Source: Zanthoxylum bungeanum (Eukaryota; Streptophyta; Magnoliopsida; Sapindales; Rutaceae). Taken from it: a stretch of 64,000 bases of DNA. Location of the stretch: positions 1 to 64,000 of the forward strand of contig SKCR01031850.1 of the NCBI GenBank assembly GCA_019454045.1, written 5' to 3'. Below, one piece after another: positions 24,207 through 48,449 of this stretch. A program made the translations under genes and the position numbers. Numbering within the stretch: the stretch's first letter is position 1; every line of letters begins with the position of its first letter. The notes beneath the pieces were generated by a model that did no database searches, was not told the origin of the DNA, and saw nothing but the letters and a program-made list of their open reading frames with translations.

Positions 24207-24261
24207 CATTCGGGCAATCATTTCTAGTTGATGACGTTAAACTTAGCGCTAGCAAGGAGGT

Positions 24262-26412: not shown

Positions 26413-26418
26413 AGTTTT

Positions 26419-26436
26419 TGGCGCCGTTGCCGGGGA
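26419..26436 (+). other. Primer-binding site of element 1
   Basis: TGGCGCCGTTGCCGGGGA lies six bases after the LTR end. It is the primer site seen in Athila/Calypso-type elements, described for them as complementary to tRNA-Asp. Element 3 has the same 18 bases at 39240. Confidence 0.85.
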
Positions 26437-26492
26437 CTTATTTTTCTTGAGTTATTAATTTTGAAGCTATCTAATTTACATGTGATTGAAAA

Positions 26493-26712
26493 ATGGAACA
26501 TTATTGGGAGATTGAGAGATCACATGCTTTATTAGAAGATACACCCCAAATCTGGGAGCAACAGTTCGATTTTCTGAGGCCTGTTTTCCAGCCCAACAAT
26601 TATCACTGGATGCCAGAACCAAGCAATACCACATTTGCTTAACAAGACGCAATGGGGAGATGTGACATATGTAATGGTAACAACCCTAGAGATTATTGCG
26701 AATACAACTACC
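26493..26712 (+). pseudogene. Element 1 ORF1, first part (zinc-knuckle-like)
   Basis: Starts ATG at 26493 (MEHYWEIERSHALLEDTPQ). One in-frame TAA, probably from CAA, lies near 26639. After it comes CDICNGNNPRDYCEYNY, a Cys-rich segment, then the solo-LTR insertion. Reading across the insertion the frame continues exactly into 28765 (YHPGWQSYQDPSW). Y-x-P-G-W is the C-terminal Gag landmark of Athila (compare YNPGWRNHPNFSW in element 3). The protein therefore looks like a Gag remnant that kept its zinc-binding and C-terminal part but lost the core Gag domain. Confidence 0.7.
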
Positions 26713-28763
26713 TGTTAGTGATTCTAGGTCTCCAAGATCGAATTAAACAAGCATGAACATGTGTGAATACAACGACGAAAGTTGCGGAATACATACATCG
26801 AGCGGTTGAGCGACGCGGGAGGCAACAAAAACTCTTCACTGCCCACTGGAACAGCTCACGGTAGTTCACTTCTGTCCTCACTGGTTCGGCCCTTTTGAAT
26901 CATCTTCCAAGCTCCAAGCTTCGTCGTGGTGATTCCTGGCTCATGGGTGGACTTCCATATCACCTTCGCATGATCCCGGAGTGTGCTAGCACTCTCGATT
27001 TTGCCACAAAATCACACTTTGCTTCCCACCATTTTCGGTTCTGCCAGCAAAAAGAAGAAGAAATGGCGTGAGAGAGATGAGCAAGTTTTGGCTCCAATTT
27101 CATGAGAAGAGAGAGAGACTGTAATGTGTGTTGGTTTTGTGTATTTGTGTATCTAATACACAAAATTCTTTTCAAAAAATCAATAAATGATTTATTAAAA
27201 ATTTGGCTTTAAAAGTCAAACAATTAAAAGCCACACCAACCTCCATCAACTCACATCACTCAATCTATTGACAACTTGTCACATCACTCAAAGTGACATT
27301 TGATTTGACGTTTGATGTGACTAATGATTTGATGCTTCATTTGACTTGCGTGCCGCACTCGAATTCGAAATGCGAATGCGCTCGCAAATAATCTCGGGCT
27401 CGGGTTTGCTAATTCCAAATTAACGAATTTTTCGTTGCGTCGTAATTAAATGATTACGCCTAGCGAAATCATTATTCACGTCGCTAACGAATTAATTATA
27501 AATTAATTCGTTCGCCCGAATTAAAATCTAATTTTAATTCCGCGTCGAAATCCAATTTCGTTTAATATATCGAATATATTAATTAATCGATTAATTCCAA
27601 ATTAATCATTCTCTCTCTTTAATTGATATTTTATCCCAGATAAAATATCTCTGCAATTATCCTAGATTAATTTTCTCTCTCATCTTATTAATCCCAGATT
27701 AATTAAAGTGCGAGTCATACGTCATCGGCGAATCTTTGGGAAGCGACCCATGAGATCCCCGGATATGTTGGCAGTAAATTCGGTCGTCGGACTATCCGAA
27801 CACGTTAGTACCTAGTACTACGTTTATACCGATTTACAAGACAAGGTTGGCGTCTAGCAAAGCGCCATGCCTACCCAATTCTCCGGAAATATCATTACAG
27901 GAATAAAGGATCTATATCAGGCGTAGTATACGTAGTATTGCGTATTTCTTTCCAGTATCAGATGATCACATGCGAGGCCTGGGGCTGGTACAGTGTCTGC
28001 CCCGTACAAAGCATATATCGGATTACGAGCAACTAGTCTCTTTAAAATCGGATAATCATGACCAAGTCATATTATCCCGACGGTTGCAACCTTATATAGA
28101 GAGCCAGTTCTTTATCCCTGCGCTATCATCAACTCCATATGACTCGAGTGACACTTCCATTTTGACATCACACCCAACACACTACAATTCTCGATATACT
28201 CAGAATTGACGTACACAGAACCAGTTAAAGCCCTGGACGACCTCAACCAAAGTATATTGATTGTGGCAAGTATTAGTTGTGCAAGTCTCAGGTTAAGACC
28301 AAATACATATACCCTGATTGCAGACTCCCATAGATACATAATCATACTAGCAATGGGATTCCACAGGGTCTATCCAGAGCGAAGCTATTTCCCGTACCAT
28401 CGGAGAAACACAACCTCCTATTACACTTGCATGAGTATCATATACCCAAATATATGAGAACTATGTCATTGTGCCCTCACAACGCTCACAAGTGTAATAC
28501 TAGTCTTTTACGCATTCATCGATGTCCAATCTCAATAATGCTCTGACTTGGGATATTTAATGATTTATCCTTCGTGGATTGATATTGTCTCATATCATTC
28601 TCAATCCAGGAAAATCACATCACAGGGACCTCCTATCATTTATATATATAGGTGATCTAATCACAAATGATAAGAGTGCAATTTCCTTTGTCACATAGTT
28701 AATTTGTACAACAACACCGTGATTTGTACAAATAGTGACACTATGGGTCATAATTGTCCAACA
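26713..28763 (-). mobile_element. Solo Copia LTR (B family), TSD CTACC
   Basis: A single B-type LTR in reverse orientation inside ORF1 of element 1. On the minus strand it starts TGTTGGACAATTATG and ends AATCACTAACA. The TSD CTACC is at 26708-26712 and 28764-28768. A single LTR with a clean duplication indicates insertion of a full element followed by recombination between its LTRs. It is closest in its text to B2, not B1. The inner palindrome array is present in inverted order. Confidence 0.93.
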
Positions 28764-29358
28764 CTACCATCCAGGGTGGCAGAGCTATCAAGATCCTTCA
28801 TGGTATGACGAGCCATCACATTTCACAGAACCATATTTTCCATCTTATCCACCACCCCCCTACAATGATCTTCATCAGCAATCAGAACAATCAGAGGAAG
28901 ATCGGATGATTGACATGCTCAAAGATTGGGTCAAGAAACATGACGAAAATTTGGATACACTGCTTGAAACATGCCATAATCAATTTGAAAGTATTCAGAG
29001 ACAATCAGAATTCATTCAGAGACTGACAGATCAAACGAGACAATTACCTCAAGAAGAATTATCAGATGAAACTGAAAAAGCCTTCGAGTACCCAGAGATC
29101 CACAATGACACCTTAACAGAGGAGGAGGCTGAGCAGTATCAACAACCAGAGGTATCAGTTCATGAGCCCAAACCAGCAAAGTCTGTATTTCACTTTTATT
29201 ATTCAGATTCTGATGAGGATGAAGCTGATCTATTTGTACCAACTACACCAACAACAGAGGATCAAACTTTTAATTCTCAAAATGAAGATCTTAGAGCATG
29301 CTTTACCATGATGTTTGATGAAGATCTACCTGAACCATCCATTCCAGTCGTATAAAAG
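28764..29358 (+). pseudogene. Element 1 ORF1, second part (acidic Gag-like tail)
   Basis: An open stretch of 197 codons after the solo LTR. It starts YHPGWQSYQDPSWYDEP, then a proline/tyrosine-rich part (YFPSYPPPPYND). A Glu/Gln-rich, likely coiled-coil stretch follows (DMLKDWVKKHDENLDTLLE, FIQRLTDQTRQL), then a very acidic part (YYSDSDEDEADLF), ending FDEDLPEPSIPVV. No catalytic motif. It stayed open although the insertion split the gene. Probably the C-terminal half of a Gag-like protein; function unknown. Confidence 0.6.
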
Positions 29359-29427
29359 GATGAAGACATAATGTCAGAAACATCTTTACATCCTCACGTT
29401 GATACTTATGGAGCATGCATTTCATAG

Positions 29428-29808
29428 ATGACAGATGAAGAACTGAACGAGGAAATTTTAAAATTCATCTGTGAAAAAAAGGTGGAGCAAGAAGCAGGGA
29501 AAATGGAGGAGCAAATGTCTGGACTTATTAAAGATCCAGAACATTCAGGAGAAACATCACTGTTTTGGGGAGTACTGATCAAAGATATCACCCAGAAGCT
29601 TGACAGAGTGGAACTTCTATTCAAAGTCAAGCACCATACGAGACCTCCTGATTTTATTTATTTCTTTTCAGGAACCACTGCAGAAACAAAGGTTAAAAAG
29701 GTGGAACGAGCACGAAATAAGACAAAAAAAATTTTGCCTCTTTACCGTTGGAAAAGACCCTTCAAAAGCACGCTCACGGGATTGTCATTAATCGGACATC
29801 CAAAATGA
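29428..29808 (+). CDS. Element 1 ORF2, unknown 126-aa protein
   Basis: Open frame beginning MTDEELNEEILKFICEKK, rich in Glu and Lys, with a basic C-terminal part (KKVERARNKTKKILPLYRW). The frame directly before it (KDEDIMSETS..., ending with a TAG at 29425-29427) suggests both were once one longer protein behind ORF1. No known domain is recognised and no pol motif is present. It lies where protease/pol would normally start, and is followed by the conserved post-integrase leader at about 29830-29969. It may be a remnant and not an expressed gene. Confidence 0.4.
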   Translation: MTDEELNEEILKFICEKKVEQEAGKMEEQMSGLIKDPEHSGETSLFWGVLIKDITQKLDRVELLFKVKHHTRPPDFIYFFSGTTAETKVKKVERARNKTKKILPLYRWKRPFKSTLTGLSLIGHPK

Positions 29809-29829
29809 CATTGAAACCTCCTTAACAGA

Positions 29830-29969
29830 TGGATTTTAGTCACGTCTGGCTGAAGGCGAAAAATTTTACGCTAGTAGGGAGGCAACCCATGCAATTTGTT
29901 GTAATTTTTGTTTTTATATTTTGTGTATACATGTTGTAGAGTTTTTAATTTCTTGTGTTATTTTTGTAG
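29830..29969 (+). promoter_or_regulatory. Post-integrase leader with splice-acceptor-like end, element 1
   Basis: 'TCACGTCTGGCTGAAGGCG' and 'GGGAGGCAACCCATGCAATT' match the leader at 42050-42163 in element 3 and the 24245-24261/34412-34467 junction in element 2. A T-rich tract ends in TTTTTGTAG at 29969. In Athila-type elements this region precedes the env-like gene, so a spliced sub-transcript is plausible; splicing itself is inference. Confidence 0.5.
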
Positions 29970-30090
29970 GGAAAAGCTCAATCAAAGCATAAGACAGAAG
30001 GAATGGTGTTTGGAAATATAAGAGATAATTCATTAGCGATGGCTGAGTAAGGAATGGATTCTTGAGACGCATCCTAATGAATTTATACTA
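29970..30090 (+). pseudogene. CRP remnant in element 1
   Basis: Only short blocks align with the CRP genes of elements 2 and 3: GGAATGGTGT, a degenerate 'GATAATTCATTAGCGATGG' (GTCTAATAATCGCGAAG... in element 3) and GAGACGCATCC. The Cys cluster and basic stretch are gone, so this copy is dead. Confidence 0.55.
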
Positions 30091-30181
30091 AGCGAATGGC
30101 GTATTGCGTACACAATTCTGTTGCCTTAATTATTGCTTTGATTTGCTTTTCTGTTGTAATTATCTTTATTTTCATAGACAG

Positions 30182-30278
30182 AATCCAGACTTTTTGACCT
30201 TTCATGATTTCTTTTATTGTTTAGCTAACAATCGTCCTTTGGAAGATACTAGTGCTATTATTACTCACCCTTTTCAGG
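30182..30278 (+). other. Conserved exon-like block between CRP and LOG, element 1
   Basis: Flanked by TTTTCATAGACAG and CCCTTTTCAG|GTACTA, that is an acceptor-like and a donor-like boundary. It can encode a peptide with FLTFHDFFYCLANN then LEDTSAIITHPF. Element 2 (35140-35236) keeps almost the same peptide (FHDLFYCLANN, NTSAIITHPF). Element 3 (42827-42924) has the DNA but a shifted frame. No family is recognised. Confidence 0.45.
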
Positions 30279-30281
30279 TAC

Positions 30282-30288
30282 TATAAAT
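30282..30288 (+). promoter_or_regulatory. TATA-like box 64 bp before LOG1
   Basis: TATAAAT in 'CTATAAATTCAGC' is conserved before all three LOG copies (35239 and 42929 in the others), 58-77 bp before the start codon. Confidence 0.35.
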
Positions 30289-30345
30289 TCAGCCCGTCAT
30301 TGCACTTTTGAAGGCATCCAGAGTTGAGAAAGAAATACATAAAAA

Positions 30346-30975
30346 ATGGAAGCCACTTCAAGAAGAGGAGTTGAAAACATCTGTGTGTTTTGCGGTACTA
30401 GTGTTGGTACTAAGCCACAATACGTACAAGCAGCACATGAATTGAGTTGAGTCTTAGCTGCAAAAATATGCACTTAGTATATGGTGGAGGCAATCTTTGA
30501 CTTATGGGGATCGTTTCAAAGGCCGTACAAGAAGGAGGCAGTCACATTTTGGGAATCATCCCAAAACCATTGGCAGAGGCAAATCTTATTGGATCATCAA
30601 ACGGAGATGAACTGATCGTGCCAGGTATGTCTGAACGACTTGGTAGAAATGATTAACCGTGCTGATGCTTTTATTGCTTTGCTAGGTGGCTTGGGTACAT
30701 TGGAGGAAATTTTTATAGTGCTATCTTGGGCGAAATTGAACATACACCAGAAACCAATAGGCTGTTTAATGTTGATGGATTTTATGATTTTCTTTGTGTG
30801 TTTCTTGATGATGCCGGAGAAATGAGTTCGTGTCAAAACCTTTAAAAGAACTCCTGATCTAATTGACCAAATCTTAGCCTATGAACCACAAATTGACCAT
30901 ATCCTTTCAAAGATAAATTCGTCTGAGGACGATCGTGGTAAGAGGCGTCAGATTAATCTGGATCTTAACCTTTAA
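30346..30975 (+). pseudogene. LOG1, decayed LOG-like cytokinin-activating enzyme
   Basis: The start matches LOG3 (MEATSRRGVENICVFCG). A TGA stop follows HELS near 30447, a frameshift lies near 30470, another near 30640 (the extra base splits SERL and VEM), and another near 30770. Recognisable pieces are [20 protein letters not shown], with PGG changed to LGG, and the terminal INLDLNL. Nucleotide similarity to LOG3 is high throughout, so the loss of function is relatively recent. Intronless, as are the other two copies. Confidence 0.88.
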
Positions 30976-32271
30976 TTTCCTGTAGAATTTCAGCTAACCA
31001 GATACTATCTTCTACATTATTCTTCTACTGTTTAAGACATTGATGACAATGTCTCATTTAGGTTTGGGGGAGGGAATTAGTTGATTAGTATCTTGTTTTT
31101 TTTAGTGTGTGTTGTTTTTTAGTAAAAAAATTTTAGAAAAATACCAAAAAAAAATTGAAATTTTTTCAAAAATTACAAAAATATTTTGCGTTTTTGTGTT
31201 TTTATTTTGACTAAAAAGGTGAAATTGGTAAGAGATAGCTGAGTAAGAAGTTTTCACTCCTGAGACGTATCTCAAACCTAATTCGGAACAAGTTACTTTT
31301 TGTTTATTTCCTTTTGAATTCTCCATAATACTGACTAAAAAGGATCTTCATATGCTCAATTAGCAGATATTATCAACATGCATAGTAACATACAGACATG
31401 AGTTGTAATTGAAAAGTTTATAATATTAGTGCTCTAGTTTAATTGGAGAAAGCATCTCAAAAAGTGATGGAGTAAAAAACAAACGTCTGAGATCCGAGTT
31501 ATTAAGTCTGTAAGGGTGTAACACCTAGTTCCATAAAGCCAACTGGTTTGGGAGTCACTGGCCCAAAGCTCGCTACATGGATCAAGGATGTTGCAAAAAT
31601 ATATATATTTGAAGTCTGAGTAATTAAGTCTGTAGGGGTGTCTTAACACCTGGTGCCCTAAAGCCAACTGGCTTGGGAGCCACCGACCCAACACTCGCTA
31701 CATAGATGGAAAATATTGTATATATAAAAAAAAAATCAAAAATCATAGAAAAAAAAATCAGAAAAATTATTCCATTGCTGCAAAAAGATGTGAATTCTGA
31801 TAAAACTTAGGACAAAAATATTACTCTCTTATCAACTACACTTGCGACTGTTGTGGGCAAAAATGAGTTGATTAATATTTTGTTGACTGTGTATCTGGAG
31901 AATGGTAAAAATAATCGGAGAATTTATTTATTCGGTAATTTAGAATGAAACAAAACAACTATTGAATTGGAGTAGAAGTTTCACCTGATTAGTCACTAAC
32001 TTATTTATTCTCTTTTCTCTTGTCTTTTTGCTTTTGTGTGCATTAGTTTTATTATCTTTTTACTTTTGTAAAACGTTTGTGGGTATCGTTGCTGTAAGCC
32101 CTCACGAGACTATAACTCGTCCACTAGGGACAACTAGGGTTTAAAGGCTTGTTGCATGTGCTAAATGCAACCGTGATCCCTACGAAAGTGGCTTAGTTTA
32201 ATTTTAATTGTTTCTTGTATTTTATTTTGTTGTTTTGCTCAAGGACTAGCAAAATGTTTGGTTTGGGGGTG
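30976..32271 (+). other. Element 1 3' untranslated region, polypurine tracts and duplicated block
   Basis: Holds an internal polypurine-like tract (AGGTTTGGGGGAGGG, about 31061-31075) next to 'GACAATGTCTCATTT'. A block beginning 'ATCCGAGTTATTAAGTCTGTA' and ending 'CTCGCTACATGGAT' occurs twice (about 31492-31582 and 31612-31710). A conserved stretch 'CTGTAAGCCCTCACGAGACT' is at about 32091-32110. The real polypurine tract GGTTTGGGGGTG is at 32260-32271, directly before the LTR. No gene. Confidence 0.65.
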
Positions 32272-34411
32272 TGATGAGCGGAATTATATCAATATTTACC
32301 GCCCCTTTGACTAAATATTTTGTTTAGTTTCTCGGGTTTGATGAACGTTTTGATGTGTTTTAGTTTATTTTGCAGATAAAATAATATTGGGACACAATGA
32401 AATCATTTAGGACGAAATGTCGGTCAAATAAGGGCAAAAATTGGACTTGACATATTAATTTTGGAGATTGGAAACTTGAAAGAGCGTTTTAATGAAATGC
32501 AGTTTTGGAAATTCCAATTTTGCGCATATGTCGTATTTTGGGCATAACGTTTTACTCCAATATTGGATTGAGATGATTCAAGTTCCAGATTAAAGACGAA
32601 TCAAAGATCTAAAACTTTTAAAGACAAAATAATTTCGAATTCTGAAGATTTAATACTCGAAATTGATGAACCATCCAAAGGTGTGTTGTGTGTAATTATT
32701 AAAGTCATTTTCAAAGCAAAAATAAATCAAAAATAAATAATAAAAATTATCAAATTACTACCAAACATGATAAGCAATAAGTGGAGCAATTAATAATGGA
32801 TTTGGTGGAGCAATTAGTGGAGAATTTAGTGGAGCAATTAATAATTGATCTCGTGGATGATTTGAGGGAGGCAAAATTTTGCCTATAAATACCAAGCCAT
32901 TTCATTTGTAAATTCATACTTTCTTCTAAGGAATTCCTTAAGAATGCTAATAAGATTGTATCTTGTTTGTTTATTACAGCTTTCAGTAATTAATTTCCGC
33001 TTTCGTAATTCTTTTCTTTACTTTTCAGTTTTTACTTTCCGCAATTTACTTTTACGCACAATACTTTTCTTTCTTTAATTTTCAGTTTTTACTTTTCAGT
33101 AATGAGGAGGTAACTCCCCTTTGTTGGGGTAAAAGGTAAAACTTTTATTACTAATATTTAGATTAATCTCCCTTAATTATAATATATAAACTAGTTAAAA
33201 CCTGACTTAACGGGATACCGCCAAATTGGTTGGTTGGTAATTATTTAAATTGGTTTTAACCTGACTAAACTGGATACCGCCTGATTGGTCGGTTGGTTAA
33301 TTAATTATTAATTTGACTTAATCTGGATACCGCCTATATGGCTGGTTGGTAATTATCATGCAAAGTTAATATATTATATTAAGAGAGATATCTAAAATAG
33401 AAGTAATAAAAGTGGATCCTTTTACCTCATATTTTCTTTTATTTATTATTTTTACTTTATTTACTGTTCAGCAATTTACTTTCAGCATTATTTTTCAGCA
33501 ATTTACTTTCAGCATTTATTTTTCAGCAATTTACTTTCAGCATTTTACTTTCAGAATTTACTTTCAGCATTTAATTTTCAGTATTTAATTTCAGCATTTA
33601 CTTTCCGTCTTTTACTTTTCAGCAATTTACTTTATGTCTTTTATTTTCTTTAAGTTTTTACTACCGTAATATGTGTCGTAACTAAAGCAGTTATCTGGGG
33701 TTGTGATGAAATCCAATATCACCGGTTTATAAGGGGTTATTTATAGTTGGGTTATTTAAAGGTTTACTTATTTAGTCTTAAGCTTAATGCTTCTTGTTGT
33801 CTGATCACCAACAAGATTGATGTGTTAAATCTAAAATAAACTTGACAAATGATTTTTTTTTTCAGCCTTAAACTTAATAGCACATGATCTTCCTTGAGGA
33901 TAGACAACCCTTTAATAGATTTTATTACAGGATAGACATATACCTGTCGGGCGAGGGTAGCCATAATTGGAATTTAAACTTAATGAATCCAGGTAATTTG
34001 GTTGACATAGACATATGGTTCAATTGGGTTAAACTGGGTATTTGCGTCTGACCATCGATAGAGGCTTTCGCATAATTTCGTGTTCCAGGTTAGTAAACCC
34101 ATTTATTACACAACACATAAATAATCACTTCATCTTTTAAAAGATATTAGAAAGATTCACAACCCTAGATCTTTGAGTCTTTTGTTATTTTCCTTAGTAT
34201 TTTCTTTTGTTTATTTTATTTATTTTAATTAAGGAAAACCACATTCAACCAATCAAACAATCATTCTCTTCTCCATTTAATTAGATATTTGTAAATAAAT
34301 AGATTCAACAATTAATAAAAATAGTAGGAATTAAGTCCTCGTGGGATCAATATTTTTATACTACTTAAACGATATGTGCGTTGCGTTATACGTGTGTGTG
34401 TACGCCGGTCA
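32272..34411 (+). repeat. 3' LTR of element 1
   Basis: Starts TGATGAGCGGAATTATATC and ends ACGCCGGTCA. Carries TATAAATACC at 32884. It is immediately followed by the GAGGT duplication and the rest of element 2. Confidence 0.9.
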
Positions 34412-34484
34412 GAGGTAACCCATGTAATTGTGTATATATTGAGATTTTGTGTGTTTAATTTTTCTAGGAAAAGTCACAGATAGG
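34412..34484 (+). promoter_or_regulatory. Element 2 post-integrase leader with splice-acceptor-like tract
   Basis: Continues the leader interrupted at 24261 (GAGGTAACCCATGTAATTG). A pyrimidine-rich tract ends in TTTTTCTAG at 34467, 17 bases before the ancestral CRP start codon at 34485. Element 3 has the same arrangement. Confidence 0.45.
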
Positions 34485-35032
34485 ATGGAAGACGTTCTCG
34501 CGAAACTTCACAGGCATTTTCCTTCTCTTCCTCAAAACTCTCTGATGAAAGTCTACAAAGTACACATTGAAATAATAAGACTTCTGATGATCAAAGTATG
34601 CCTAGCAATATCTGTTGGATAATTGAAGCACGAGTCCGCTTGGCAGGTGAGTCATCTGACTCTTTTATTTCATTTTTGTCTGGTTTAGGAAAAAGCACCT
34701 ATGCTAAGAAAAGAAGAGCTAAAACATTAGGTGTTTGTTATAAATGTGCACGATGTACATGCAATACTCGTTGTCTTTCTTTAGGAATGGTGTCTGATAA
34801 TCGCGAAGATAAAATAAAATTCATTAGGGATGGCATGAGTCAGGAGTCTTTAGATGACATATCATTGACTCTTAAGACGTATCCGAGTGGATATGTCTAT
34901 CATGTAATTCGCAATTTACATATACAGTTTCGAAGAAAAAGACAACAATTGAGTCTCAGGAATCTGACTTTAAAAGACCTTATTTTCCACTTTATAAGAA
35001 AATTGTATGAGATTCTTGTCCCTGACCCATAG
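34485..35032 (+). pseudogene. CRP2: basic Cys-cluster protein, N-terminus frameshifted
   Basis: The ancestral start is at 34485 (MEDVLAKLHRHFPSLPQNSL, matching CRP3). A frame change near 34580 separates this from the long open frame at 34598-35032. That frame keeps the core: SDSFISFLSGLGKSTYAKKR, the basic run KKRRAK, then C-Y-K-C, four residues, C, three residues, C. It continues with NREDKIKFIRDGMSQESLD and runs past the CRP3 stop to an extra basic tail (RRKRQQLSLRNLTLKDL). The core could still be made from the internal ATG at 34598. Probable role, by resemblance only: a nuclear nucleic-acid-binding protein. Confidence 0.65.
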
Positions 35033-35315: not shown

Positions 35316-35954
35316 ATGAAACGAGTCATTAACATCAGTGTGTTTTGTAGGACTAGTTCTGGATCTAAACCAGAATTTATTGAGGCAACACAAGTATTGG
35401 GTAAAGTCATGGCTGAGAGAAATAAGCACTTAGTATATGGCGGTGGCAATCTTGGACTAATGGGATACGTTTCAAAGTCCGTACATGAAAGAGGTAGTCA
35501 AGTTTTGGGAATCATCCCAAAACCTTTGGCAGAGGTGAATCTTATCGGACAATCAAACGAAGAGGAATATATCATGTCAGGTATGTCCGAACGACTAATT
35601 GAAATGATTAATCGTGCTGATGCTTTTATTGCTTTGCTAGGTGGTTTGGGCACGATGGAGGAAATTTTCACAGTAATATCTTGGGCGAACTTGAACATAC
35701 ACCAGAAACTAATTGAAATGTTTAATGTTGATGGATTTTTTGACTTTCTTTTTGTGTTTCTTGAAGATGCCAGGAGAAATGGGTTCCTTTCAAAACCTGT
35801 AAAAGATATTCTCTTCACTGCCAGAATAGCCAAAGATTTAATTGACCAACTCTTAACCTTCGAACAAAAAATTGACCCTATCATTTCCAAGATAAACTGG
35901 TTTGATAATGATCGTGGTAAGAAGTGTCGGATAAATATGGATCTTAACCTTTAG
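35316..35954 (+). CDS. LOG2, LOG-like phosphoribohydrolase with altered motifs
   Basis: An open frame of 212 codons without introns. LOG enzymes release active cytokinin bases from nucleoside 5'-monophosphates in the cytosol or nucleus. Visible family parts are VFCRTSSGSKPEF (CGSS altered, Gly to Arg), [41 protein letters not shown], then LGGLGTMEE where the family has PGG-x-GT-x-x-E, and NIHQKLIEMFNVDGFFD. The C-terminus is KINWFDNDRGKKCRINMDLNL. The ancestral start at 35301 (MEATL) is frameshifted, so the present start at 35316 removes about five residues. The Pro to Leu change in the phosphate-binding loop and the Gly to Arg change make full activity doubtful. By eye it is about two thirds identical to LOG3. 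Confidence 0.8.
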   Translation: MKRVINISVFCRTSSGSKPEFIEATQVLGKVMAERNKHLVYGGGNLGLMGYVSKSVHERGSQVLGIIPKPLAEVNLIGQSNEEEYIMSGMSERLIEMINRADAFIALLGGLGTMEEIFTVISWANLNIHQKLIEMFNVDGFFDFLFVFLEDARRNGFLSKPVKDILFTARIAKDLIDQLLTFEQKIDPIISKINWFDNDRGKKCRINMDLNL

Positions 35955-37170: not shown

Positions 37171-39233
37171 TGATGAGCGGAAAATATATCAATATTTACC
37201 GCCCCTTTAGCTTAATATTTTGTTTAGTTTCTCGGGTTTGATGAACGTTTTGATGTGTTTTAGTTTATTTTGCAGATAAAATAATATCGGGTCTCAATGA
37301 AATGATTTAGGATGAAATATGGGTCAAATAAGGGCAATTATTGGACTTGATATTTTAATTTTGGAGATTGGAAACTTGAAAGGGCGTTTTGACGAAGTGC
37401 AGTTTCGGAAATTCCAGTTTTGCGCATCTGTCGTACTTTGGGAATAACTCTTTACTCAGCTATCGGATTGAGCTGATTGAAGTTCCAGATTAACGAAGAC
37501 TCAAAGATCTACAACTTTGAAAGACAAAATAATTTCGAATTCTGAAGATTTCATGCCCGAAATTGATGAACCATCCAGAAGTGTGTAGTGTGTAATTATT
37601 AAAGTCACTTTCAATCATTTTCAAAGCAAAAAAAAGAAATTAATAAAAAAATAATAAAAATTATCAAATCATCACCAAACATGATAAGAGATTAGTGGAG
37701 CAATTAATAATGGATTTGGTGGAGCAATTAGTGGAGCAATTAGTGGAGCAATTAATAATTGATTTGGTGGATGATTTGATGGAGGCAAAATTTTGCCTAT
37801 AAATACCAAGCCATTTCATTTGTAAAATTTGTACTTTCTTCTAAGGAATTCCTTAAGAATACTAAGAAGATTGTATCTTGTTTGTTTATTTACAGCTTTC
37901 AGTAATTAATTTTCGTTTTCGCACTTTCTTTTCTTTACTTTTCAATTTTTACTTTCCGCAATTTACTTTTACGCACATTACTTTTCTTTATTTAATTTTC
38001 AGTTTTTACTTTTCAGTAATGAGGAGGTAACTCCCCTTTGCTGGGGTAAAAGGTAAAACTTTTATTACTAATATTTAGATTAATCTCCCTTAATTATAAT
38101 ATATAAACTAGTTAAAACCTGACTTAACGAGGATACCGCCATATTGGTCGGTTGGTAATTATTTAAATTGGTTTTAACCTGACTAAACTGGATACCGCCT
38201 GATTGGTCGATTGGTAATTATCATGCAAAGTTAAATATTATATTAAGGGAGATATCTAAAATAGAAGTAATAAAAGTGGATCCTTTTACCTCAGCATTTT
38301 CTTTTATTGTAATTTTACTTTATTTACTTTTCAGCAATTTACTTTTAGCAATTTACTTTTCAGCATTTACTTTTCAGCATTTAATTTTCAGTATTAATTT
38401 CAGCATTTACTTTTCAGCATTTACTTTTCAGCATTTAATTTTCAGTATTTTACTTTATGTCTTTTATTTTATTTAAGTTTTTTTTTTATTACCCGTAAAT
38501 ATGTGTCGTAACTAAGCCAATTATCTGGGGTTGTGATGAAATCCAATATCACCGGTTTATAAAGGGTTAAATTATAGTTTGGGTAATTTAAAGGTTTACT
38601 TATTAAGTCTTAAGCTTAATGCTTCTTGTTGTCTGATCACCAATAAGATTGATGTGGTAAATCTAAAATGAACTAGACATAGGGATTTTAGGTTTCAGCC
38701 TTAGACTTAATAGCCCACGATCTTCCTTGAGGATAGATAACCCTTTAATAGATTTCCTTACAGGATAGACATATACCTGTCGGGCGGGGGTAGCCATAAT
38801 TGGAACTTAAACTTTAGGAATCCAGATAATTTGGTTGACATAGACATATGGTTCAATTGGGTTAAACTGGGTATTTGCGTCTGACCATCGACAGAGGCTT
38901 TTGCATAATTTAGTGTTCCAGGTTAGTAAACCGATTTATTACACAAACATAAAATAACCACTTCATCTTTAAAATGATATTGGAAGAAATCACAACCTAG
39001 ATAGTTTTTAATATTGAATTTTCTTACAACCTACTTTCGAACAATTTTATTTACTTGTTTTTAAATTTAGAATCGTCACCATTTCAAATCAATCAAACAA
39101 CCTGTTAGATACTAGTAATCATTTGACTTCATAAAATTAATAGATTAGATATTAAGTCCTCGTGGGATCGATATTTTTATACTACTTGAACGATACGTGC
39201 GCTTGCGTTATACGTGTGTGTTTACGCCGGTCA
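37171..39233 (+). repeat. 5' LTR of element 3
   Basis: Starts TGATGAGCGGAAAATATATC and ends ACGCCGGTCA. It has the TTTACTTTCAGCA-type array at about 38325-38460 and a unit 'GTGGAGCAATTA' repeated around 37695-37755. Confidence 0.92.
37798..37804 (+). promoter_or_regulatory. TATA box of the element 3 5' LTR
   Basis: TATAAAT in 'TTTTGCCTATAAATACCAAG' is the same in the 3' LTR (45582-45588) and in element 1 (32884-32890). Its position about 630 bp into the LTR fits the U3 promoter. The start of transcription about 30 bp downstream is inferred. Confidence 0.6.
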
Positions 39234-39239
39234 AGTTTT

Positions 39240-39257
39240 TGGCGCCGTTGCCGGGGA
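39240..39257 (+). other. Primer-binding site of element 3
   Basis: TGGCGCCGTTGCCGGGGA, intact, six bases after the LTR end. Same Athila-type site as element 1. Confidence 0.88.
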
Positions 39258-39470
39258 CTTATTTATCTTTCACTGTTAATTTAGGGGTTAGATACGTTAC
39301 TTGTATCTAATTTCTTTTTACTTATTGTTTTTGTTTTCTTGTGTTTCAGGTTCTCAGAAACTACATGAGATGAACCAGAAGCTTTGAACTCCGATCGCTT
39401 GACCCAGAATTGAAAGAACCATCAGACAGTTGAGAAGGCAAAGGCGAGAAGGCCAGAAGCTTTAGTCAAC

Positions 39471-40735
39471 ATGGAACCTGAACCGTTGGAGGTTGCACCA
39501 CCAATTCCCATTTGAGACAGAACCATTCCGGTGGTTGACAGACTCATTTCCTGTATTGTACTTCCTCCCTTACCAGCAAATGCGTGTGACATCAAAACAT
39601 GCATTCAGATGATTCAGCAGTCAGTTCAGTTCGGGGGGAATGCAACTGAAGATCCTAATGCCCACATCAGTAACTTCCTGGAAGTTTGCGGTACTTTCAA
39701 CTACAACAGAGCATCAGAATAAGCAATGAGACTGCGAGTTTTCCCATACTCCTTGAAGGACAGAGCTAAAGCTTGGCTACATTCACTACCAGCAGGTTCC
39801 ATCACAACTTGGAACACTCTAGCCACCAAATTCCTTGCAAAATACTTTCCACCGGCCAGAACTGTAAAGTTGAGGAATGACATCACATCCTTTGTACAAC
39901 AAGATTCAGAATCCATCTGCGAAGCTTGGGAAAGGTACAAAGATTTGCTCCGGAAATGTCCTCACCATGAGATTCCAAAATGGCTTCAAGTCCAAACATT
40001 CTATAATGGACTTTCTGGAATAATGAGAACCACAATTGATGCTGCTGCTGGAGGAGCACTAATGGCAAAAGGAGAAGATCAGCTTGGGATTTAATGAAGA
40101 AATGGCCAACAATAATTCTTTGTGGCCAACAGAAAGGAGAATGATCCAAAGAATCGCATGAATTTATGAAGTTGGAGTCAACACAGCACTGAATGTCAAG
40201 CTGGATATGATTTGCAAAAATCTGGAAACTCTTAACATGAAGGTTAATGGTGGATCCACAAGTTCATCATATAAAGGAGCACCAGAACCAGTTCAGCAGG
40301 AAGAGACAGTGAATTTTGTCAACAATTTCAACAGACAGGGGAACAATCCATATTCCAACACCTACAACCCAGGGTGGAGGAATCATCCTAATTTTTCATG
40401 GAGCACATTCAGGCCAACAGCAAAACTATCCACCACCTGAATTCCAACAACAGAACAAAAGCCAGGAGCAGGTAAATGAACCACGAATAACAGAAGTGTT
40501 GACCCACTTGAAAAAGTTAGAAGCAAAACAGACTCTCAAGCAGCAAGATATGATGCTATGTTTCAATCCCAATCAGCATTAATTCAAAGTCAATCTGCTT
40601 CTATTAAAGCACTGGAGAATCAAATGGGACAACTGGCAATGCTCAGAGTTACAGACCGCCAGGTACCCTTCCTAGCAACATTGAGCCAAATCCAAGAAAC
40701 ATGGGGAAGGAACAATGTCATGCCATCATGTTAAA
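39471..40735 (+). pseudogene. Gag pseudogene of element 3 (Athila-type)
   Basis: Begins at MEPEPLEVAPPIP (39471), with a stop soon after. The core reads ATEDPNAHISNFLEVCGTFN, then LRVFPYSLKDRAKAWLHSLP, GSITTWNTLATKFLAKYFPP and CEAWERYKDLLRKCPHHEIP, the classic Athila Gag core. After a shift near 40090 the C-terminal part NTYNPGWRNHPNFSW appears, then KALENQMGQLAMLR. Stops near 39522, 39721 and 40440 and at least two frameshifts break it. Gag would build the virus-like particle; this copy cannot encode a full one. Confidence 0.88.
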
Positions 40736-40859: not shown

Positions 40860-41560
40860 ACCTTTTCCTCAACGTCTTCAGAAGAACCATTGGACAAGCA
40901 GTTTTCTCGGTTCCTGGAAATCTTCAAAAGCTGCATATCAACATTCCATTTGCAGAAGCGTTGGAACAAATGCCCACCTATGCCAAATTCATGAAAGATA
41001 TTCTTTCACGAAAGCGGAGATTGGGAGATTACGAGACAGTAGCATTATCAGAAGAATGCAGTGCTATCATTCAGAGGAAACTTCCCCCGAAGTTGAAAGA
41101 TCCTGGCAGTTTCACTATTCCTTGCGTCATAGGAGAACATAACTTTGGTAAGGCTTTATGTGATTTAGGTGCTAGTGTTAACTTGATGCATTTTTCTATT
41201 TTCAGGAAATTACAGATTGGAGAAACAATGCCAACTTCAGTCTCACTGCAACTTGCTGATAGAACGCTCGTATTTCCAAGAGGCGTAGTTGAGGATGTGC
41301 TGGTCAAGGTTGACAAATTTATTTCCCAGCAGATTTTATTGTCCTTGATATGGAGGAAGACGCAGACGTGCCAAATCCTCGGGGAGACCGTTCTTGGCTA
41401 CAGGTCGAACCATTATTGATGTACAAAAAGGAGAACTAACCATGAGGGTACAAGACCAAGAAGTAACATTCAATGTTTTCAAGGCCATGAATTTCCCAGA
41501 TGATGAAAAGAAGGAGGAATGTTTCAAACTCGATGTGATACACAGTACCATTCAGAACTC
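40860..41560 (+). pseudogene. Aspartic protease region of element 3
   Basis: The segment begins LHINIPFAEALEQMPTYAKF, then DILSRKRRLGDYETVALSEE and KLPPKLKDPGSFTIPCVIG. The active-site loop is ALCDLGASVNLM, where Athila proteases have D-L-G-A in place of D-S-G-A. A frameshift near 41330 moves the reading to LGRPFLATGR-like and IIDVQKGELTMRVQDQEVTF. Immediately after it, near 41600-41690, the sequence jumps to the integrase tail, so RT, RNase H and most of integrase are deleted. Confidence 0.85.
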
Positions 41561-41679
41561 TGATGAAAGACAAAGTTCTACTGACAAACTTAAAACATGT
41601 CAATTGCATGTGGAGCCTAAAGATAAAGCATCTTTTGCACTGAAAGAGCCAATTCTTGCTCTACAAGCAACAGAAGAGA

Positions 41680-42040
41680 AAAAGTTCCACCATCTCAACG
41701 AATTGGAGGAATTTCACAATCAGCCTTTTGAAGATGCCAAATTGTACAAAGAAAAGGGCAAGAAAGAAAAGACATGATGAGAAGTTAGTGCGCATACAAC
41801 TGGAACCAGGGCAGAAGGTACTGTTAAACAAATCAAGGGTGAAATTCTTCCCATGGAAGCCAAAATCACCGGTGGTCAGGTCCATTTGTGATCACCAAAG
41901 TTTTACCAAATAGAGCCGTTGAGATACATGATCCTGACGCTAACAAAACTTTCAAGGTTAAAAACAAGCGTGTCAAGCACTACTGGGGAGAATCATTTGA
42001 ACGACAAAAAGAAAGTGTTACACTTTCAGATCCAGCTTAA
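41680..42040 (+). pseudogene. Integrase C-terminal tail of element 3
   Basis: Contains HHLNELEEFHNQPFEDAKLY, a shift, EPGQKVLLNKSRVKFFPWK, then in another frame GPFVITKVLPNRAVEIHDPD, FKVKNKRVKHYWGESFERQK and a stop in GATCCAGCTTAA near 42040. This matches the end of element 2's integrase. The catalytic D, D, E residues are absent because the core is deleted. Confidence 0.85.
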
Positions 42041-42049
42041 CGTTCGAGA

Positions 42050-42163
42050 AGTCAAGTCTGGCTGACGACTTTAAACTTAGCGCTAGCAGGGAGGCAACCC
42101 ATGCAATTTTTGTATATATTGTGATTTGGTGTGATTTAATTTTGTGTGTTTAGTTTTTTGCAG
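42050..42163 (+). promoter_or_regulatory. Post-integrase leader and splice-acceptor-like tract before CRP3
   Basis: 'GTCTGGCTGACGACTTTAAA' and 'CTAGCAGGGAGGCAACCCATG' form the conserved leader. A T-rich tract then ends in TTAGTTTTTTGCAG at 42163, 16 bases before the CRP3 start codon. In Athila relatives a spliced transcript is proposed to express the env-like gene from this place. Confidence 0.5.
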
Positions 42164-42179
42164 GTTAAGACATTTCAAG

Positions 42180-42629
42180 ATGGAAGAAGCTCTCGCAAAT
42201 CTTCACAAGCAATTTCCTTCTCTCCCTCAAAAATCTCTAATGAAAGTTTACAAAGCTCGCTTGGAACGGATGAGGTTACTGACGATCCATGGTGTTCCCA
42301 ATGACATTCGTTGGGTAATTGAAGCACGAGTCCGATTGGCAGGTGAGTCTTTAGACTCTTTTATTTCACATCTGCCTGGTTTTGGAAGAAGCACCTATGC
42401 AAAGAAACGAAGAGCTAAGCAAATGGGTGTTTGTTACAAATGTGCACGTTGGAATTGCAATACTCATTGTCGTTCTTTAGGAATGGTGTCTAATAATCGC
42501 GAAGACAAAATTAAATTCATTAGGGATGGCTTGAGTAAGGAGTCTTTAGATGATATATCTTCGACTTTTGAGACGCATCCCAGTGGATATGTTCACATAG
42601 CCTTTCGCAGATTACATACACAATTTTAA
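42180..42629 (+). CDS. CRP3: intact basic Cys-cluster protein (149 aa)
   Basis: The start at 42180 is chosen because MEEALANLHKQFPSLPQKSL aligns with the ancestral start of CRP2 and follows the acceptor-like tract. Residues 20-60 look helical. Residues 67-80 (GFGRSTYAKKRRAK) carry a basic, nuclear-signal-like run at 75-80. Then come C85, C88, C93 and C97 (C-x2-C-x4-C-x3-C, with H96), a probable zinc site. The part after it, NREDKIKFIRDGLSKESLDD, is the segment best conserved with CRP2. A helical N-part, basic run and CxxC-type cluster in a protein of this size recall the nucleic-acid-binding cysteine-rich proteins of carlavirus-like plant RNA viruses. That likeness is by pattern, not by search. 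No transposon protein of this kind is known to me. Confidence 0.7.
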   Translation: MEEALANLHKQFPSLPQKSLMKVYKARLERMRLLTIHGVPNDIRWVIEARVRLAGESLDSFISHLPGFGRSTYAKKRRAKQMGVCYKCARWNCNTHCRSLGMVSNNREDKIKFIRDGLSKESLDDISSTFETHPSGYVHIAFRRLHTQF

Positions 42630-42826
42630 AAAGAAAGACAACAGTTAAGTCTTGGGAATCTGACTCAAAAAGACCCTGTTTGCCAATTTATAAGAAAATT
42701 AGATGGGAAACTTGTCCTTGACGCATAGACGTTAATCAAGCTCTAATTCTTGTACATATTATATCTCTTTGTCTTTTCCTAATAATTTTGATTTGTTTTG
42801 TTGTTTTCTTTTATTTTCTCCGACAG

Positions 42827-42935
42827 GATCCAGACCTTTTTGACCATATCACGATCTATTTTACTATTTTGTTACTAATCATCCTTTGGAAGATACTTGT
42901 GCTATTTTTACTCACCCTTTTCAGGTACTATAAAT
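42827..42935 (+). other. Exon-like block and TATA-like box, element 3
   Basis: Bounded by TTTTCTCCGACAG (acceptor-like, ending 42826) and CCCTTTTCAG|GTACTA (donor-like, 42924/42925). The peptide frame seen in elements 1 and 2 is shifted here. TATAAAT at 42929-42935 lies 58 bp before the LOG3 start codon. Confidence 0.4.
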
Positions 42936-42993
42936 TCAGCTCGTCAATGCACTTTTGAAGGCATCCTGATTTGAGAAATAAATACATAAAAAC

Positions 42994-43647
42994 ATGGAAG
43001 CCACTTCAAGAAGACGAGTTGAAAATATTTGTGTGTTTTGCGGTAGTAGTGTTGGTACTAAACCACAATACATAGAAGCAGCACAGGAATTGGGCCGAGT
43101 CTTAGCTGCAAGGAATATGCACTTAATATATGGCGGAGGCAATCTTGGACTTATGGGGATCGTTTCAAAACCCATACAGGAAGGAGGTAGTAACGTTTTA
43201 GGAATCATCCCAAAACCCTTGGCAGAGGCAAATCTTATTGGATCATCAAACAGAGAGGAACTGATGGTGCCAGGTATGTCTGAACGACTGGTAGAAATGA
43301 TTAACCGTGCTGATGCTTTTATTGCTTTGCCAGGTGGCTTGGGCACATTGTTGGAAATTTTTATAGTACTATCTTGGGCGAACCTGAAAATACACCAGAA
43401 ACCAATTGGGCTGTTTAACGTTGATGGATTTTATGATTTTCTTTGTGTGTTTCTTGATGATGCCCGGAGAAATGGGTTCATATCAAAACCTTTAAAACAA
43501 CTCCTCTTTACTGCCAGAACTGCTCCGGATCTAATAGACCAACTCTTAGCCTATGAACCACAAATTGACCCTGTCCTTTCAAAGATAAATTGGTCCGAGT
43601 ATGATCGTGGTAAGAGGCGTCGTGTTAATCTGGATCTTAACCTTTAA
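42994..43647 (+). CDS. LOG-like: LOG3: intact LOG-like cytokinin riboside 5'-monophosphate phosphoribohydrolase
   Basis: 217 codons, no intron, whereas plant LOG genes normally have several introns, so it passed through an RNA stage. The family hydrolyses cytokinin nucleotides directly to active free bases. Signature residues are VFCGSSVGTKP at 14-24, HLIYGGGNLGLMG at 43-55, LGIIPKPLAE at 69-78, M-S-E-R-x-x-E-M at 95-102 with the catalytic-type Arg at 98, and PGGLGTLLE at 113-121, fitting PGG-x-GT-x-x-E with Glu 121. [17 protein letters not shown] follows. The length equals that of plant LOGs. The C-terminus is unusual: a basic run GKRRR then VNLDLNL, an EAR-like L-x-L-x-L ending, in place of the usual LOG tail. 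All expected catalytic residues are present, so activity is plausible. Confidence 0.9.
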   Translation: MEATSRRRVENICVFCGSSVGTKPQYIEAAQELGRVLAARNMHLIYGGGNLGLMGIVSKPIQEGGSNVLGIIPKPLAEANLIGSSNREELMVPGMSERLVEMINRADAFIALPGGLGTLLEIFIVLSWANLKIHQKPIGLFNVDGFYDFLCVFLDDARRNGFISKPLKQLLFTARTAPDLIDQLLAYEPQIDPVLSKINWSEYDRGKRRRVNLDLNL

Positions 43648-44968: not shown

Positions 44969-47070
44969 TGATGAGCAGAAAATATATCAATATTTACCGC
45001 CCATTTAACTTAATATTTTGTTTAGTTTCTCGAGTTTGATGAACGTTTTGATGTGTTTTAGTTTATTTTGCAAATAAAATAATATCGGGTCTCAATGAAA
45101 TCATTTAGGATGAAATATGGGTCAAATAAGGGCAATTATTGGACTTGATATTTTAATTTTGGAGATTGGAAACTTGAAAGGGCGTTTTGACGAAGTGCAG
45201 TTTTGGAAATTCCAGTTTTGCGTATCTGTCGTATTTTGCACATAACCTTTTACTCAGATATCGGATTGAGCTGATTCAAGTTCCAGATTAACGAAGACTC
45301 AAAGATCTACAACTATGAAAGACAAAATAATTTCGAATTCTGAAGATTTCATTCCCGAAATTGATGAACCATCCAGAAGTGTGTATTGTGTAATTATTAA
45401 AGTCACTTTCAATCATTTTCAAAGCAAAAAAAATAAATTAATAAAAAAAATAAAAATTATCAAATCATCACCAAATATGATAAGAGATTAGTGGAGCAAT
45501 TAATAATGGATTTCGTGGAGCAATTAGTGGAGTAATTAATAATTGATTTGGTGGATGATTTGATGGAGGCAAAATTTTGCCTATAAATACCAAGCCATTT
45601 CATTTGTAAAATCCATACTTTCTTCTAAGGAATTCCTTAAGAATACTAAGAAGATTGTATCTTGTTTGTTTATTTACAGCTTTCAGTATTAATTTTCGTT
45701 TTCGCACTTTTCTTTCTTTACTTTTCAGTTTTTACTTTCCGCAATTTACTTTTACGCACAAAATTTTCTTTATTTAATTTTCAGTTTTTACTTTTCAGTA
45801 ATGAGGAGGTAACTCCCCTTTGCTGGGGTAAAAGGTAAAACTTTTATTACTAATATTTAGATTAATCTCCCTTAATTATAATATATAAACTAGTTAAAAC
45901 CTGACTTAACGAGGATACCGCCATATTGTCGGTTGGTAATTATTTAAATTGGTTTTAACCTGACTAAACTGGATACCGCCTGATTGGTCGGTTGGTAATT
46001 AATTATTAATTGACTTAATCTGGATACCGCCTATATTGTTGGTTGGTAATTATATGCAAAGTTAATATATTATATTAAGGGAGATATCTAAAATAGAAGT
46101 AGTAAATGGATCATTTTACCTCAGCATTTTCTTTTATTGTAATTTTACTTTATTTACTTTTCAGCAATTTTTTTAGCAATTTACTTTTTAGCAATTTACT
46201 TTCAGCATTTACTTTTCAGCATTAATTTTCAGTATTTAATTTCAGCATTTACTTTCAGCATTTACTTTTCAGCATTAATTTTCAGTATTTTACTTTATGT
46301 CTTTTATTTTTTAAGTTTTTTTTTACTACCCGTAAATATGTGTCGTAACTAAGCCAATTATCTGGGGTTGTGATGAAATCCAATATCACCAGTTTATAAA
46401 GGGTTAAATTATAGTTTGGGTAATTTAAAGGTTTACTTATTAAGTCTTAAGCTTAATGCTTCTTGTTGTCTGATCACCAATAAGATTGATGTGGTAATCT
46501 AAAATGAACTAGACATAGGGATTTTAGGTTTCAGCCTTAGACTTAATAGCCCACGAACTTCCTTGAGGATAGATAACCCTTTAATAGATTTCCTTACAGG
46601 ATAGACATATACCTGTCGGGCGGGGGTAGCCATAATTGGAACTTAAACTTAATGAATCCAGATAATTTGGTTGACATAGACATATGGTTCAATTGGGTTA
46701 AACTGGGTATTTACGTCTGACCATCGACAAAGGCTTTTTCATAATTTAGTGTTCCAGGTTAGTAAACCGATTTATTACACAAACATAAAATAACCACTTC
46801 ATCTTTAAAATGATATTGGAAGAAATCACAACCCTAAATAGTTTTTAATATTGAATTTTCTTAAAACCTACTTTCGAACAATTTTATTTACTTATTTTTA
46901 AATTTAGAATCGTCACCATTTCAAATCAATCAAACAACCTGTTAGATACTAGTAATCATTTGACTTCATAAAATTAATAGATTAGATATTAAGTCCTCGT
47001 GGGATCGATATTTTTATACTACTTGAACGATACGTGCGCTTGCGTTATACGTGTGTGTTTACGCCGGTCA
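44969..47070 (+). repeat. 3' LTR of element 3
   Basis: Starts TGATGAGCAGAAAATATATC and ends ACGCCGGTCA before the TAACC duplication. TATAAAT at 45582-45588. Confidence 0.92.
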
Positions 47071-47075
47071 TAACC

Positions 47076-48449
47076 CTCAACGCATCGCGACGCCGACACA
47101 ATAATTCGGCCGCCATTTCCAGTAGACGCGGGCCGATTTTGAAGCCTATAAATTGAAGTTGATTTCAGTTGATTTTCTTCATACTTTCTTATGGGGAATT
47201 TCCTTAGAATATTAAGAAGAGAGTATCTTGTTTGTTAATTTCAGTTTCCTTGTATTTAATTTTTATTTTAAGTAATAAATCTTTTTTTGTTTTACTTAAA
47301 AGTATGAGTAGGTAATTTCTTTCTGCTAGGGTGAAGGTGAAACTTTTATTATTATAATTTATATTAATCTCTCTTATTTTATAATATATAAATTATCTTA
47401 AAACCTGACTTAATTGGATACCGTATTTATGGTTGGTTGGACTTAATTAAATTAATTTTAACCTGACTTAATTGGATACCGCCTTTATGATCGGTTGGAA
47501 TTAATTAAAATATGACTTAATCAAGATACCGCCTATATGGTCGGTTGGTAATATAATGCAAATTTATATATTATAATAAGAGAGATTTGTAGATTTGAAA
47601 TAATAAAAGTGGATCCCCAAACCCCAACATTTTATTTCATTGTTGTAATTTTTATCTTTTTAGTTTTCAATTTGTAGCATGATGTTTTATTTATTAATGT
47701 ATTTAGTATTCCTATATATGTGTCGTAACTAAATACGTTGTCTAGGGTTGTGATGAAAACCAATATCAATGATTTAATAAGTTGACTTTTCTTATGTCGT
47801 GTGTGGTGTATAGGTTCATTTATTGAGTATAGTTCTTAATTTTTCTAGTTAATTGGCCACCAATAAGATTGATTTGGTAAACTTAAAATGAACTTGGAAA
47901 ATTGATTTTAGGTTTAGCCGTAGACTCAATAGCTCACGATCTCACATTCACCTTAGAGATTTCATTTCAGGATAGGAATATACATGTCGGGCGTGGGTAG
48001 CCATAATTGGAACTTAAACTTAATGAATTCGAAGTTTCTTATTTAACATATGAATATAGTTAATTGGGTTACTCTGGGTGTTTGCATCTGACTATCGGAA
48101 GAGGCTTTTGCATATTTTCGTGTTCCTGGTTAATAAACTAGTACATTACACAAGTATAAAATAATCAACTCATCTTTAGAATGATATTGGTAGGATTCAC
48201 AACCGTGGATATTTTCATATCAATATTTAAAACTTAAAATCTACATTTTTTTTGTTTTATTTACTTGTTTTAGATAAAAAAAAAAAAAACACCATTCAAC
48301 TAAAAATCAAATCAATTAGATAGGGGTCGAAATTTAGTTTCATAAATTAATAGCATAAGTATTAAGTCCTCGTGGGATCGATACTTTTTATACTATTTCC
48401 ACCGTATAAGTGTTCGGGATAAACACGTCTTAGCTACTTTGCGCCAACA
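47076..48449 (+). repeat. Element 2 3' LTR (family A'), right part
   Basis: Continues the LTR begun at 36856. It shares with family A the 'GGATACCGCC...GGTTGG' units (about 47400-47560), 'TGTGTCGTAACTAA' and 'AAGTCCTCGTGGGATCGATA', and has its own TATAAATTGAAG near 47151. It ends near TTTGCGCCAACA at 48449, the boundary chosen because VOZ-like coding sequence starts directly after. The exact end is uncertain by a few bases. Confidence 0.75.

Follow-up and report, generated by a model that had tools for sequence, protein, structure and literature searches.

A recurrent NABP-like and LOG-like gene pair in the 3' region of Athila-type retrotransposons of Zanthoxylum bungeanum

The stretch of DNA analyzed here, referred to as the window, comprises 64,000 nucleotides of contig SKCR01031850.1 of Zanthoxylum bungeanum (assembly GCA_019454045.1). 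Two neighboring genes occupy positions 42180-43647: the first base is the ATG of a cysteine-rich open reading frame, termed NABP-like below for its Pfam matches, and the last is the final base of the stop codon of a LOG-like gene. Self-BLAST of the window places LTRs of approximately 2.1 kb at 24262-26412, 32272-34411, 37171-39233, and 44969-47070. Together with the remains of an older copy, these define three related elements, denoted I, II, and III, whose parts are as follows.

23337..24261, + strand: core and tail of the element II integrase (PF00665 rve, 3.1e-12; alignment to element III and to locus L079)
24262..34411, + strand: element I, inserted in element II, with LTRs at both ends, target duplication GAGGT, and a K2P distance of 0.054 between LTRs
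30346..30972, + strand: dead LOG copy of element I, with stops and frameshifts
34482..34930, + strand: NABP copy of element II (tblastn), in two frames with one frameshift near 34592
35316..35954, + strand: LOG of element II, open over 212 codons, with LGGLGTMEE as its motif (LGG for PGG)
37171..39233, + strand: 5' LTR of element III (TGATGAG...CGGTCA; self-BLAST), K2P 0.029 against the 3' LTR
39234..39258, + strand: region of the primer-binding site in element III, AGTTTTTGGCGCCGTTGCCGGGGAC; element I has identical bases after its 5' LTR, at 26413
39723..40091, + strand: gag fragment of element III (PF03732 Retrotrans_gag, 1.9e-24); gag continues in broken frames
41349..42040, + strand: protease end fused directly to the integrase C-terminal tail of element III (translations)
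42180..42629, + strand: NABP gene of element III (PF05515 4.5e-7 and PF01623 9e-7, both above curated cut-offs)
42787..42993, + strand: leader preceding LOG, which can be aligned among all three elements; splice-acceptor-like sites lie at 42824 and 42922
42994..43647, + strand: intronless LOG gene of 217 codons in element III, with Arg98 and PGGLGTLLE, tail GKRRRVNLDLNL (PF03641 3.9e-32)
44969..47070, + strand: 3' LTR of element III (self-BLAST, target duplication, K2P)
47071..48398, + strand: rest of the element II 3' LTR, displaced by element III; its start, inferred from self-BLAST, lies near 36857-37170

Element III spans 37171-47070, has TG...CA ends, and is flanked by a perfect 5-bp target duplication, TAACC (37166-37170 and 47071-47075). 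Element I likewise has TG...CA ends and a perfect 5-bp duplication, GAGGT. The K2P distance between LTRs is 0.10-0.11 for I versus III, compared with 0.054 within I and 0.029 within III. Given their own target duplications and these distances, elements I and III are separate insertions of related elements, and segmental duplication of one local event, which the first-pass annotation had named as the outcome that would overturn it, is excluded. Element II is the older host of element I, which splits the integrase tail of II (ending at 24261) from its cargo (from 34412). Locus L079 aligns without a break over this insertion point, first to 23678-24260 and then to 34412-35464. The claim that all three elements carry the same cassette stands for II and III and fails for I, in which the LOG is dead and the NABP is reduced to short matches, for example at 30027-30053. 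That the capture is older than the local elements was confirmed. Elsewhere in the window, a tandem array with spacing of about 34-35 and 69 bases lies inside another repeat at 1239-2255, and a minus-strand copy of a different repeat family (that of 19856-22740), perhaps a solo LTR, lies within element I at 27294-28763.

As first annotated, these elements show features of the Athila type: TG...CA LTRs with 5-bp duplications, a gag domain (III), an rve integrase domain (II), and extra open reading frames before the 3' LTR. The sequence TGGCGCCGTTGCCGGGGA, read at 39239 in element III and also present in element I, and the longer AGTTTTTGGCGCCGTTGCCGGGGAC are what we take to be complements of tRNA-Asp. 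A primer-binding site of the tRNA-Asp type is usual for Athila. tRNA-Asp is among the primers of non-chromoviruses in the available part of PMC6317226. Translations of element III contain no reverse transcriptase, RNase H, or integrase core, and Pfam recognized gag alone among the six fragments of this element that were scanned. A LOG-like gene next to a cysteine-rich gene between the integrase tail and the 3' LTR, as originally annotated, was found again in II, III, and copies across the genome. The splice-acceptor-like sites before LOG might yield a spliced message. What looks like a translation of the leader (THPFQVYKFSS-like) also occurs in N-terminal extensions of two related proteins, P0130 and P0133, through either a splice acceptor or a small coding piece.

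The NABP gene of element III stops after 149 codons; the common length among relatives is 182 amino acids, and the other 32 codons continue in frame. At E<=0.01, 46 of 51 aligned relatives match Carla_C4 (PF01623) and 43 of 51 match Viral_NABP (PF05515), while no further Pfam family matched more than one member. The NABP piece of element II also matches Carla_C4. A basic stretch is followed by four cysteines in the arrangement C-x2-C-x4-C-x3-C; at least 90% of the 51 rows retain them. The first-pass description, a nuclear-looking zinc protein, was thus incomplete, as the protein scores above the Pfam cut-offs for two viral nucleic-acid-binding families. Viral members of these Betaflexiviridae families include silencing suppressors, according to the available part of PMC8839810; the carlavirus treated there, for which functions of the cysteine-rich protein (CRP) are described, has the finger C-x2-C-x12-C-x4-C. 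The element protein shares with carlavirus CRP/NABP (PF01623, PF05515) the profile match above cut-off and the basic stretch directly before a four-cysteine cluster. It differs in being longer (182 aa) and borne by a retrotransposon and in having a shorter finger loop, so that the C-X2-C-X12-C-X4-C spacing is absent from it.

The structural model of this protein is poor (pLDDT 64.3), and with it as query no viral structure matched significantly, the best E being 0.14. Betaflexivirus NABPs or silencing suppressors hold ranks 1-3 of the 36 insignificant viral matches. No sequence relative was found among PDB entries at E up to 1, nor in the viral contig collection. A trimmed core was also used as query so that short viral proteins could enter the list; none of the 120 matches listed from this search (754 proteins, E up to 1) is named after a virus, which leaves Pfam and a weak fold ranking as the basis of the viral link. 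In view of the differing finger spacing, the weak model, and the insignificant structural matches, the protein is best called NABP-like rather than a strict member of the Betaflexiviridae NABP/carlavirus CRP. Among its relatives is an uncharacterized Citrus sinensis protein (P0115, LOC127903001) whose gene model omits the basic stretch and finger. The label PF01623 also occurs in two glyoxalase papers; in one of them it was seen to denote another domain, HAGH_C.

The second gene is of the LOG-fold enzyme type (cytokinin riboside 5'-monophosphate phosphoribohydrolase), as judged from a Pfam Lysine_decarbox/SLOG match, its sequence, and its model, with the corresponding activity predicted. Among PDB sequences, the element III protein matches Arabidopsis At2g37210 with an E of 1.9e-56. 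Its model has a mean pLDDT of 85.9, and the best PDB fold match is again At2g37210 (E 1.5e-19; TM 0.75 by query and 0.94 by target). The solved structures of At2g37210 and At5g11950 are 2a33 and 1ydh. Arg98 and PGGxGTxxE are the LOG catalytic residues. In 122 aligned rows, made up of the 120 best listed relatives and two window copies, Arg98 is present in 110 (11 have Gln and 1 has Leu), and the last Glu of the motif is retained in 119; the Lys after Arg98 is lost in 112 and present in 10. No LOG relatives were found in the viral contig collection.

With the plant enzymes At2g37210 and At5g11950 the element LOGs share fold, length, Arg98, and PGGxGTxxE; they differ in the mostly replaced Lys, in an EAR-like tail in most of them, and in a single continuous frame. 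Identity to At2g37210 is 40-59% in all 116 rows compared (>150 residues), whereas At2g37210 and At5g11950 are 68.5% identical to each other. On this basis, the relatives listed make up a group of divergent LOGs. LxLxL is the EAR co-repressor motif. It stands at the C-terminal end in 81 of 102 relatives (those of at least 200 aa, with three fused proteins left out), and a basic stretch plus LxL in 84 of the 102; elsewhere in the same proteins, LxLxL fills 9 of 4812 windows. This basic stretch and EAR-like tail hint at nuclear or co-repressor action.

The genome searched comprises 3.956 Gb in 51709 contigs. The element III LOG query gave 70284 first-look candidates, of which 150 were scored; all 150, the window copy included, are at least 91% identical, and 141 have no internal stop. 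The scored list is ranked by LOG likeness and is consequently biased towards intact copies. Forty copies fetched from it all hold a full LOG (38 without a stop), and in 36 the LTR starts about 2 kb after the LOG ATG, at a steady distance. Some match to the integrase tail is present in 38 of the 40 and an NABP lies upstream in 24, at least seven of which, and clearly not all, retain the full open 182-codon frame. A probe from outside the cargo, the 248-base integrase tail, gave 598 candidates; scoring of 40 of these left 30 loci, among them the window itself. Among the other 29 loci, 27 have NABP, 25 have LOG (two keep just the last 31 residues), and 23 have both in order; L071, which is not among the 23, ends before the expected LOG start. 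The pair is inherited together through independent insertions, as had been anticipated. Two contrary outcomes are set aside by the same counts: the possibility raised beforehand that other family members lack both genes, and the suggestion of a local oddity, against which stand both the 150 LOG copies and the 23 of 29 loci with the pair.

The pol deletion of element III, which removes reverse transcriptase, RNase H, and integrase core, is shared by 25 of the 29 other integrase-tail copies, aligned over more than 1.1 kb through the junction. These 25 copies retain gag, and most of them the cargo as well. Upstream of the 30 integrase-tail loci, no integrase core was detected. The integrase core of element II, used as a query, yielded 46785 candidates; the 150 scored are 79-85% identical (window excepted) and mostly open. 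At L079, a 657-codon integrase-bearing frame is followed by an open 182-codon NABP and then by a 155-codon LOG frame that lacks the stretch containing Arg98 and PGG. Since element II and L079, the two loci looked at, show the same arrangement, the cassette order exists behind integrase too.

The missing NABP of element I was at one time attributed to local damage. This explanation was replaced by loss at the level of a subfamily, because the upstream structure of element I recurs in 13 of the 40 fetched copies (13 of the 16 without NABP). NABP and LOG are thus separable. When the 13 are compared with the NABP group, identity is 0.815 over the 200 bases before LOG, 0.960 in LOG, and 0.932 over the 500 bases after it. 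Divergence before LOG with similarity in LOG and downstream is as expected if subfamilies exchange 3' halves. The NABP-less subfamily resembles another non-autonomous form, smaller than the first, with which it would trade 3' halves. Thirteen loci (L013, L016, L017, L018, L020, L021, L022, L028, L029, L032, L036, L039, and L045) are without integrase tail and NABP and carry LOG and the same LTR.

Both genes are under purifying selection. In the integrase-tail sample, dN/dS is 0.32 for NABP (12 ungapped copies, 66 pairs) and 0.34 for LOG (10 ungapped copies, first 199 codons, 45 pairs), with the window copy included in both sets and stop codons skipped; stops occur in 7 of these 12 NABP and 4 of these 10 LOG copies. 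Nine ungapped NABP copies of the LOG-ranked set give 0.19. Between elements II and III, the values are 0.36 for LOG (bootstrap 0.25-0.52) and 0.39 for NABP (0.24-0.61), and none of the 300 replicates for each gene reached 1 or more.

Relatives of both proteins occur in several plant orders. The NABP-like search found 147 proteins at E<=0.001, with Xanthoceras, Acer, Citrus, Orobanche, and Striga among the hosts of the 120 listed; the 120 listed from the core-profile search add Populus, Rhamnella, and Parasponia. The LOG search found 7480 proteins, of which the best 120 were listed. Across hosts of the Lamiales, Sapindales, and Malpighiales, the proteins have the same length and 55-70% identity. 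In a LOG tree of 104 rows, the window copies fall in a 21-row clade (support 100/94), apart from the rows of Populus LOGL10, Paulownia, Reevesia, and Xanthoceras. Three Populus LOGL10 proteins in the divergent LOG group (P0158, P0162, and P0199) are annotated as host genes and may be transposon cargo. In the NABP tree, built without viral sequences, rows of the same genus mostly group together, and deep branches are weak, with good support for just 12 of the 38 inner branches. The idea that this tree follows host orders was rejected, as Citrus stands apart from Acer plus Xanthoceras and Orobanche falls in two groups. A LOG (P0210) and an NABP (P0311) were each found on 14 contigs, the longest being the same one for both (66318 bases), which suggests that the two are linked in a Populus-like source.

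Athila-lineage elements with extra 3' open reading frames, two of them LOGL4-like, were reportedly described by Steinbauerova et al. in 2011. The available text of PMC9289625 calls its own YgdH result "in line with" that study and reports a YgdH/LOG domain in Citrus elements and, without a copy filter, in Populus trichocarpa. The first-pass remark that such a cargo was not familiar from any described retrotransposon does not hold for the LOG domain. These previously reported elements are likewise Ty3/gypsy with a LOG-type extra frame, and Populus and Citrus are shared hosts; they differ from the present ones in that a virus-type NABP partner, the pair, selection, and pol-less amplification are not described in the accessible part of PMC9289625. 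In literature searches and in the available portions of PMC9289625, PMC7264820, PMC11728184, PMC3136472, and PMC6317226, we found no report of a virus-type NABP partner or of the NABP and LOG pair in these elements, and cytokinin is not mentioned in those of PMC7264820 or PMC11728184. LOG in such elements is known, and the NABP partner and the pair are apparently new. As given in its available part, PMC6317226 counted extra frames of at least 250 codons only, a threshold at which both window genes would be missed. Among more distant parallels, in the portions of the sources at hand, a Phalaenopsis Gypsy element carries an AlkB-type RNA demethylase, a kind of host-interaction enzyme also present in Betaflexiviridae, and differs in its Ogre-like lineage, other gene, and single-gene cargo (PMC9289625). 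Insect LINEs that captured helicase domains of plant viruses are alike in joining a retroelement to a domain of plus-strand RNA-virus type, and differ in being non-LTR, in their insect hosts, and in the domain itself (PMC4686597, PMC5563155; available parts).

The explanation preferred here, to which we give about an even chance, takes the pair as a conserved 3' module of two genes in an Athila-type lineage of LTR-retrotransposons, in which a protein of the betaflexivirus NABP/CRP kind and a divergent, intronless LOG act as proposed below. Its descriptive part is observed directly: profiles identify both genes, their order and position are constant, transposition has spread them in many copies, the cargo occurs both behind integrase and in pol-less copies, and both genes show purifying selection. 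It is rather unlikely that the genes were instead caught once and simply ride along without any function for the element, their low dN/dS stemming from a small number of intact source copies on which selection acts for other reasons. The many copies with stops, shifts, and deletions, the subfamily that lost NABP, and the crippled LOG of L079, the nearest integrase-bearing copy read, speak in favor of such passengers. However, dN/dS lies well below 1 in both genes, in copies found with the non-cargo probe as well as between the long-separated II and III, and constant length, 55-70% identity across three plant orders, and the four conserved cysteines point the same way. As for host benefit, in which the plant would retain element-borne LOGs as extra cytokinin genes, the related Populus proteins named as host genes (LOGL10) are consistent with it, but the copy number (150 scored of 70284 candidates) greatly exceeds what a set of host genes would have, the LTR distance is constant in 36 of 40 copies, and the relatives are further from At2g37210 than the two Arabidopsis LOGs are from each other; this reading is highly improbable.

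The origin of the NABP-like protein allows two further readings. A small basic zinc protein born in the retrotransposon could score by chance on viral profiles without being of viral descent. Scores for proteins scanned singly are modest (24-31 bits), the similarity is largely confined to the basic stretch and the first cysteines, the finger spacing is different, and neither a significant structural match nor a relative in the viral contig collection was found. Against such convergence, which we consider unlikely, both viral families were matched above curated cut-offs, one of them across 83 residues, no other family matched more than one member, and the top three viral structure matches are betaflexivirus NABPs or silencing suppressors, though insignificant. 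It is also conceivable, with a quite low probability, that betaflexiviruses acquired NABP from such a plant retrotransposon; the size of the plant family (754 proteins at E up to 1) and its presence in several plant orders fit this direction.

Returning to the preferred reading of a conserved module, pol-less copies still keep both genes, and on this account the cargo would seem to benefit the element or its family through the host cell, not through the reverse-transcription machinery. Both proteins would be made from the element's own RNA. By analogy with carlavirus CRPs, the NABP-like protein may enter the nucleus through its basic stretch, bind nucleic acid, and dampen small-RNA silencing or shift host transcription. 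LOG would release active cytokinin or, alternatively, act in the nucleus through its EAR-like tail. Cytokinin would then keep the cell dividing in a state similar to that of the shoot meristem, from which new copies can reach seeds. As in the first-pass annotation, a role of the cargo in cytokinin supply and cell division is something we infer. A bolder version, possible but doubtful, treats the pair as a host-manipulation kit, in which a silencing suppressor of RNA-virus type disarms small-RNA defence and a cytokinin-activating enzyme drives meristem-like division; because pol-stripped copies retain the kit, pol and kit may be shared as public goods among family members.

It has long been asked how plant retrotransposons gain access to the germ line although they are silenced, and most of the extra 3' open reading frames of Athila elements are without known function. 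Here, two such frames have readable identities with opposite apparent origins, one virus-type and one plant-type, as well as family-wide linkage and measurable selection. These properties make silencing escape and hormone control testable protein by protein. They also carry a warning: genes annotated as LOGL10 in Populus and other plants may be transposon cargo.
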